64,000 bases of DNA from Caldilineaceae bacterium (GTDB taxonomy: Bacteria; Chloroflexota; Anaerolineae; Caldilineales; Caldilineaceae): the NCBI GenBank assembly GCA_958295845.1, contig OY282376.1, positions 695,022 through 759,021 on the forward strand. The letters are read 5' to 3'. The notes under the pieces are model-generated. The model was not told the DNA's origin. It searched no databases and was given only the letters and a program-made list of their open reading frames with translations. This document shows positions 25,487 through 27,546 of the stretch, piece after piece (position 1 is the first letter of the stretch; each line of letters begins with the position of its first letter). The position numbers and the translations under genes were made by a program.

Positions 25487-26611
25487 CTACAAAAGCTGAA
25501 TGACCGGTTGATCCCCCTGGGCCGGCTCAACGCTACCGATCTCCCAGAAGGGTTGTTCATTCCCCTCGCATTCGTCTCGAAATCGACCAAGACCCGCAGG
25601 CGGAACTGCAAGCAGAAGACCGCCACTCGTCTCGGCCTCCCATAACAACGTTTTGTGCGCGGCGGTCACGCCTGGACCCGCCGTGACATGCGACCCAAAG
25701 TGCTCAGGATTGCGCACGCTTCCTCGTGTCAGATAACCGGCCTCGATATAACCGAAGGCCCCGGGCAGGGCCGGCACACTCTCCGCCTCAATCTGCAGTT
25801 GCACCGGCGTATCAGCGGCAGACGCCGTCGCCAGTTCGACCGCGTGCCCCAACAGACCGTAACCAGTGATATCTGTGCCGCTTCCTACGCCCGCGGCACG
25901 GCCTGCATCGGCAGCGGCGCGGTTCAAGCGCGTCATCGAGCGGATGGCATGTTCCAGATGGTCCGGCTGGAGGTCCGGCTTTCCCTGGGCCTGCCGCGCC
26001 TCGCGGGCTGCCGAATTCTCGGCTTCGCCTGTGAGCTTGGCAGCCGTAGTGATGATGCCGGTGCCGAGCGGTTTGGTCAGGACCAGATGATCGCCTGCCG
26101 CTGCGCTACCTTTTCTGAAAAGCGAGTTGGGGGCGGCCACGCCTGTGACGCTCAGGCCGTAAAACGGCTCCGGATTGGTCACCGTATGTCCGCCGGCGAT
26201 CGCAGCATCGGCCTCCTGCACCTTGGCCGCGCCTCCCGCCAGAATTTCGGCTATCACCTCGGCCGGCAGATCTTCGGGGAATCCGGCAATATTGAGACAG
26301 ACGCGTACCTCGCCGCCCATTGCGTACACGTCGCTCATCGAGTTGGCCGCGGCAATCTCTCCATACAGCCACGGATCGTCAACGATTGGCGTGAAGAAGT
26401 CGGTCGTCTGAATGAGAACCCGCTCGTCATCCAGGCGATACACTGCAGCATCGTCAGGTTTGCCCAGACCGATCAGAACATCCGGATATTCAGTTTGCGG
26501 AAAGACCGCAGCCATCTGTCGCACGACCTGCGACAACGCCCCGGGAGGGAGCTTTGAGGCTCAACCCGCGCAGGCGACGCGCGCCGTCAAGGGTAAAGTT
26601 TTCTCTGTCAT
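25487..26611 (-). CDS. selD: Selenide, water dikinase SelD, itself a selenoprotein (in-frame TGA = Sec17)
   Basis: Makes selenophosphate from selenide and ATP, the selenium donor for Sec-tRNA. From ATG 26611 the frame reads M-T-E-K...L-T-A-R-V-A-C-A-G-[TGA]-A-S-K-L-P-P-G, then continues unbroken to the stop (374 aa). The TGA (26561-26563) falls at codon 17, exactly the catalytic Cys/Sec position of SelD (E. coli Cys17), and the conserved Lys follows three residues on. Downstream motifs confirm the family: GKPDDAAVYRLDD, TTDFFTPIVDDP, AANSMSDVYAMGG, AGGHTVTNPEPFYG. A caller that treats TGA as stop would begin at TTG 26536 and lose the active site. Other genes here use TGA as stop, so this is local recoding. 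Confidence 0.93.
26534..26556 (-). promoter_or_regulatory. Candidate bacterial SECIS hairpin in selD
   Basis: On the selD mRNA, GCUCC and GGGGC pair (5 bp, one G-U) around a CUCCC loop; CAA and UUG extend the stem below an A-G mismatch. It starts 4 nt after the UGA, with the upper stem 8 nt after it, close to the usual place of a bacterial SECIS. The loop lacks the G often seen in the first loop positions, so the fit is imperfect. Confidence 0.5.
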
Positions 26612-27072
26612 CTCAATGTCATCTCTCTGCCATCTCTCTGAATCCTGAACTGTTCCAAACCTGCCGCACAATTCTAACACAGGCCCGTGCTGAACCGCTC
26701 ACGACCGCGGCGTAGGGCCGCGACTGTACAAAATGTACTTCCTGAACGCCTAAGTCCGCCTTCAAGTCGACCCATGCGGTCAAACCATCCAGCGAAACAG
26801 CCGAATCATTATGCAAACTGCCTAGTGAATGGCGTCTGAATCTGGAGTATAGTTGTCCCAAGTGGTTGAAGCTGGTGCCGAGTGGGGTCGGCATCGCCTG
26901 AGCTTCAACCGCGACCATTCTCCTTCCTTCCTCCTTTTGGGGCCCCGGCAGAACTTGTTGTCGGGGTCCCTCCCCTCCATTCTGGACCAATTACAGAACA
27001 TAAAAAGAGGCACCGGCTGCTCAGCCAGTGCCTCTTGCGGTCCTTCTTTCTTGACTACAGACGGGAGCCAGT
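26612..27072. other. Intergenic region with strong RNA-like structure
   Basis: 461 bases between selD and the hsp20 stop; no convincing protein gene. It contains a long two-part hairpin at 26864-26910 (GGTTGAAGCT with AGCTTCAACC, plus inner GGTGCCGA with TCGGCATC), a second 12-bp hairpin at 26939-26970 (GGGGCCCCGGCA with TGTCGGGGTCCC, including G-U pairs), and the terminator at 27001-27034. Such a run of hairpins may mark a small RNA. I could not fold it as tRNA-Sec, SRP RNA or 6S RNA. Confidence 0.45.
27001..27034 (-). terminator. Rho-independent terminator of hsp20
   Basis: On the minus strand GAGGCACTGGCTG and CAGCCGGTGCCTC form a 12-13 bp stem followed by TTTTTA, about 39 nt after the hsp20 stop. 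The plus strand has only a broken pyrimidine stretch after the stem, so minus-strand use is preferred. Confidence 0.85.
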
Positions 27073-27546
27073 CTAGGCTGCAACCGCCTTTCCCCCCGCG
27101 CCGCGCACCGCGATAATGTGGGGCCTGACCTCTTCGGCCTTCGGCAAGGTTAGGGTCAGAACGCCGTCCTCGTACTCAGCGCCGATGTCGTCGGCGTTTA
27201 CGACTGCCGGCAACGTGATGCTGCGTACGAACTTGCCAAATCTGCGTTCCCGCAAATGCCACTTGGCGTTTTCCTCAACGCTTTCCCCTTGGGTCTCGCC
27301 CTGGATGGTAAGCGAATTCTCTGAAAAACTAATCTCAAGGTCGGCTGGGTCGATACCAGGCAATGACGCCTTCACACTGTAACTGTTGTCATCTTCGCTG
27401 ACATCCAGCGGCAGACGAATGTGCCCGCCCTCGCCGTTGCCTTGCCATCCTGCCGGCTCCCGGAAGAGATCACCGACCAGTTGGTCCATCTGATTGCGCA
27501 CCGAAACCATCTCACGGAATGGGTCCCATCGTACGATTCTACTCAT
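27073..27546 (-). CDS. Hsp20/alpha-crystallin small heat shock protein
   Basis: 157 aa. N-terminal arm MSRIVRWDPFREMVSVRNQMDQL, an alpha-crystallin domain (about 45-145) with LPLDVSEDDNSYSVKASLPGI and the conserved AxYxxGVLxLxLPK strand seen as AEYEDGVLTLTLPK, and a C-terminal tail with an I-I motif (HIIAV). ATP-independent holdase chaperone. GGAGG precedes the ATG. A single-gene unit with its own terminator. Confidence 0.93.
   Translation of the reverse strand: MSRIVRWDPFREMVSVRNQMDQLVGDLFREPAGWQGNGEGGHIRLPLDVSEDDNSYSVKASLPGIDPADLEISFSENSLTIQGETQGESVEENAKWHLRERRFGKFVRSITLPAVVNADDIGAEYEDGVLTLTLPKAEEVRPHIIAVRGAGGKAVAA

Follow-up and report, generated by a model that had tools for sequence, protein, structure and literature searches.

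A Caldilineaceae genome carries what we judge, at a probability of about 97%, to be an ordinary bacterial selD whose product is itself a selenoprotein, UGA-17 being read as selenocysteine (Sec) by way of a bacterial SECIS element (bSECIS), SelB and Sec-tRNA-Sec. The sequence shows the anatomy of the gene, conservation among relatives of its UGA and of a hairpin downstream of it, the presence of selA, selB and selC, and further UGA-containing genes in the same genome; from established knowledge of the family, Sec would be incorporated and the enzyme would be active. No evidence counting against this reading was found.

Reading frame, family membership and conservation of selD

The gene lies in the window, i.e., the whole stretch of 64,000 nucleotides that was analysed. 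Translation of the minus strand from 25487 to 26611 gives a single open frame of 374 residues with one in-frame TGA (codon 17). Its parts, in window positions, are as follows.

25487..26611, minus strand: selD, encoding a selenide, water dikinase (selenophosphate synthetase) of 374 aa with Sec17 counted; matches to TIGR00476, AIRS/AIRS_C and E. coli SelD
26609..26611, minus strand: ATG start of full-length SelD; Met conserved in 17 of 17 genus members
26561..26563, minus strand: in-frame TGA, codon 17, predicted selenocysteine codon; aligned with Cys17 of E. coli SelD
26552..26554, minus strand: codon of the conserved Lys (residue 20), near the active-site Sec; from translation and alignments
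26534..26536, minus strand: TTG start of the mechanical 349-aa open reading frame (ORF) in the ORF list; not the true start, bordering on the SECIS hairpin and leaving out the GUASK active site
25489-25487, minus strand: TAG stop codon of selD; from translation

The original prediction held that the frame runs upstream of TTG 26536 through one TGA to ATG 26611, over 25 codons, that this TGA is residue 17 of the conserved SelD N-terminus, a site taken by either Cys or Sec, and that a standard gene call would return a truncated ORF. On translation the frame proved exact. The ATG start adds precisely 25 codons to the 349-aa ORF, which lacks GUASK, and decoding the TGA as Sec gives the N-terminal sequence MTEKTLPLTARVACAGUASKLPPG. 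Lys20 is essential in E. coli SelD, and we infer that the truncated 349-aa product would be inactive.

Membership of the SelD family is clear from the read-through protein, which scores 339.2 bits against the curated SelD equivalog model TIGR00476 (cut-off 125; E = 2e-101) and contains both AIR-synthase domains (PF00586, AIRS, 87.4 bits; PF02769, AIRS_C, 47.4 bits). The best phmmer match among solved structures is E. coli SelD (3u0o; E = 5e-60), residues 1-372 aligning with 1-345. This match spans the whole N-terminus, and the frame extension is thus not a matter of chance. In the alignment the TGA codon stands opposite E. coli Cys17 and the Lys that follows it opposite E. coli Lys20; the active-site arrangement of the family, Cys or Sec with Lys three residues on, is present as GUASK. 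Homology to E. coli SelD and to Aquifex aeolicus SelD (2yye, 2zod) is full length, with the same active-site layout and a Lys after the catalytic residue. The Caldilineaceae protein differs from its E. coli counterpart in having Sec where the latter has Cys and in a short insert at about residues 193-213.

Conservation was assessed in 61 genomes drawn from the genus, the family and the class, 17 of them from the genus. A SelD match with exactly one internal TGA was found in 54 of the 61, including all 17 genus members, and wherever the N-terminus was read (48 of the 54 TGA-SelD genomes) the TGA occupied the same codon (48/48), the surrounding motif being AGU-(A/S)-x-K or closely similar. Two SelD homologues without TGA have Cys exactly at the Sec site (AGCAAK in L074, GGCAAK in L075), so that the TGA falls at a position which is Cys or Sec in SelD homologues, as expected of a bacterial selenoprotein and as had been anticipated for this family. 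The codons preceding the TGA (PLTARVACAG) are conserved as protein throughout the genus and, with few changes, in the family, as are codons 18-24; residues upstream of the Met at 26611 are much less conserved than the Met itself among the 17 genus members. Apart from its TGA, selD is an intact, conserved gene. All named relatives whose SelD is 81-90% identical are metagenome-assembled genomes (MAGs) of Caldilineaceae, among them bin5 (MPML) from a study of sponge microbiomes.

Three loci in the comparison set deserve separate mention. L074 (G026:C86:2428-3745) belongs to a family member with Cys-SelD, SelB and a borderline tRNA-Sec match (49.5 bits), which may reflect loss of Sec or a SelD of different origin. 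G018 has, besides its Sec-SelD, a distant second SelD-like protein, L075 (G018:C168:8786-10214), with 31% identity and Cys in place of Sec. At L086 (G037:C278:12319-14257) there are two adjoining SelD matches, each with a TGA, of which the second is incomplete because the contig ends within it; a tandem copy or an assembly effect is possible.

The surroundings of selD include two further features.

27005..27036, minus strand: hairpin resembling a terminator, directly behind the upstream hsp20 gene; one site found versus 1.4 expected in shuffles, weak evidence when taken alone
27073-27546: Hsp20 gene, upstream of selD

The position of the terminator-like hairpin after hsp20 suggests a separate transcript for selD. 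Near the first position of the window, 162-959 on the plus strand encodes the C-terminal portion of a sulfatase (with an SGSH_C domain), whose N-terminal part is not in the window.

The hairpin downstream of UGA-17

The original prediction described no recoding hairpin, and the following element is an addition to it.

26517..26535, minus strand: bacterial SECIS element with a 7-bp stem (UGUCGCA/UGCGACA) and the loop GGUCG; identified from predicted fold, pair counts, covariation and synonymous constraint

The hairpin lies 31-32 nt downstream of the TGA (alignment columns 29-47, numbered from the first base of the TGA). Across 27 distinct family sequences its pairing holds in 98.9% of cells, a value reached by none of 500 shuffles, and slid versions of the stem drop to 13-57%. 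The pair at columns 31-45 shows a compensatory change from U-A to G-C; it occurs as U-A, U-G and G-C across the class, persists in class members that are less closely related, and its variants arise at codons 27 (TCG to GCG) and 31 (CGA to CGG or CGC). The hairpin codons also have the lowest synonymous variation of 347 selD windows (0.12-0.18 for windows starting at residues 24-27, versus a mean of 0.48). When sequences are folded singly, the energy of the region is unremarkable (z from -0.6 to -1.4), and for several of them the hairpin is rearranged in the minimum-energy fold of a longer stretch.

A published bSECIS model (PMC13188914) specifies loop size, a G at the first positions of the loop and a spacing of 16-37 nt. 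The selD hairpin agrees with this model in every sequence feature, and SelB is predicted to bind it. It is conceivable, if unlikely, that the hairpin is in addition tuned to feedback. On this view Caldilineaceae and related Chloroflexota would keep Sec in SelD almost without exception, their entire selenium pathway would depend on what it makes itself, and the extreme constraint on the AGGUCGU loop region across the family would have a regulatory role beyond decoding.

Selenocysteine machinery and further selenoproteins

The genome is a single contig of 5.4 Mb (C1), on which the presence of selA, selB and selC had been predicted, their joint absence being named as the outcome that would speak against a Sec-containing SelD. 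All three were located on the same contig, scattered and with no operon shared with selD.

C1:573204-573298: tRNA-Sec (selC), anticodon TCA; 67.6 bits, cut-off 47
C1:3960026-3961198: selA; 542-aa open frame
C1:3896215-3898122: selB; 305 bits summed over pieces, cut-off 242; 650-aa open frame

The selB frame covers both the N-terminal and the C-terminal parts of the model, and neither the selA nor the selB frame contains an internal TGA. Among the 54 TGA-SelD genomes, 51 have both tRNA-Sec and SelB; the three with neither (G019, G024 and G033) are incomplete assemblies (85%, 87% and 69% complete, respectively). Four genomes without SelD (G039, G048, G052 and G060) are also without tRNA-Sec and SelB, and two (G028 and G058) have tRNA-Sec and SelB and no SelD match.

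Selenoproteins were sought family by family. At least three are encoded in the genome (SelD, FdhA and a SelW-like protein), in line with the expectation that SelD would not be the only one; the two besides SelD, each with one TGA, are as follows.

G000:C1:1232525-1234528: fdhA, formate dehydrogenase alpha subunit (L066); one TGA, NCSRAUHAPTVAG; passes the Fdh-alpha model
G000:C1:768914-769126: selW-like gene (L073); one TGA, YCVQUNY, corresponding to the CxxU motif

In each of these genes the TGA is at the Sec position of its own family and is followed shortly by a GC-rich hairpin, the fdhA loop containing GGUCU. The selW-like gene lies only about 10 kb past the end of the window and is likely to be missed or truncated by a gene caller. 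Within the window, five other TGA-extended ORFs tested with Pfam gave no sign of a second selenoprotein.

SelU/YbbB (TIGR03167) had no match in the genome itself. Because control genomes did match, the selenouridine trait is probably absent, selenophosphate then serving Sec and not selenouridine; this agrees with what has been reported for Chloroflexi (PMC1794560). GrdB/PrdB (PF07355) had no match in this genome, nor in any of the control genomes.

Alternative readings, mechanism and comparison with known systems

The TGA might be a true stop, the working protein being the 349-aa ORF from TTG 26536, a SelD-like ATPase without the active-site residue. SPS1 proteins of animals lack that residue, and the 349-aa frame is indeed what a mechanical ORF search returns. 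We consider this very improbable, at odds as it is with the conservation as protein of PLTARVACAG and of codons 18-24, with the Sec machinery in the genome and with the location of the TTG, which borders on the constrained SECIS stretch. A single base separates TGA from the Cys codons TGC and TGT, from which it could have arisen by sequencing error or as a pseudogene mutation. A sequencing error is very unlikely because the TGA recurs in separately assembled genomes; the recurrence of a single TGA in the SelD of 54 genomes, from many assemblies, refutes this explanation, and the remainder of selD is intact and conserved, leaving error and mutation together an extremely slim chance.

A general reassignment of UGA (e.g., to Trp or Gly), with no selenocysteine involved, would account for readthrough of TGA in at least three genes. 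It is hardly credible given that in all three the TGA coincides precisely with the catalytic Sec/Cys residue that characterises a known selenoprotein family, that the genome has tRNA-Sec, selA and selB, and that ordinary genes such as those for SelA and SelB have no internal TGA. The plus strand carries an antisense ORF at 25655-26557 that is open for 300 codons (300 aa), and one could take it for the real gene and the SelD frame for its shadow; the probability of this is next to nil, shadow ORFs of such size being common across the window, and it is refuted by the curated SelD match of the minus frame (E = 2e-101) and its solved homologues.

For the Sec-containing SelD that we favour, the following course of events would apply. 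A ribosome reaching the UGA at codon 17 would meet SelB, bound with Sec-tRNA-Sec to the hairpin 31-32 nt downstream, and selenocysteine would be inserted in place of termination. The resulting 374-residue enzyme, with Sec17, Lys20 and an AIR-synthase-type ATP-binding site, would make selenophosphate from selenide and ATP. SelA would use this selenophosphate to produce Sec-tRNA-Sec, thereby supplying SelD itself, formate dehydrogenase and the SelW-like protein.

The practical consequence is a corrected gene model, in that a caller halting at the TGA yields a protein without its active site. To judge from sequence, this sponge-symbiont lineage of Caldilineaceae possesses a complete selenocysteine pathway, whose products number three or more: SelD, the formate dehydrogenase and the SelW-like protein. 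Chloroflexi were listed among the selenoprotein-bearing groups in 2006 (PMC1794560). The portion of a sponge symbiont study considered here (PMC5649159) reports SelA and SelB in most bins, from various phyla, and covers Caldilineaceae bins, its bin5 (MPML00000000) being locus L029 of the present set; SelD is not described as a selenoprotein in that portion.

Knowledge of SelD and of UGA recoding is unchanged by the finding. Sec-SelD is already known from many bacteria, and the Caldilineaceae case is correct and, apart from its value for annotation, ordinary. In the prokaryote reference set surveyed by Mariotti et al. (2015; PMC4561486), 19% of detected SelD genes encode Sec, always at the same position. 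The gene described here matches those bacterial Sec-SelDs in family, in its single Sec site, in the bSECIS directly downstream and in the accompanying selA, selB and selC; the only difference is one of lineage (Caldilineaceae, Chloroflexota), and nothing of substance sets it apart from them.
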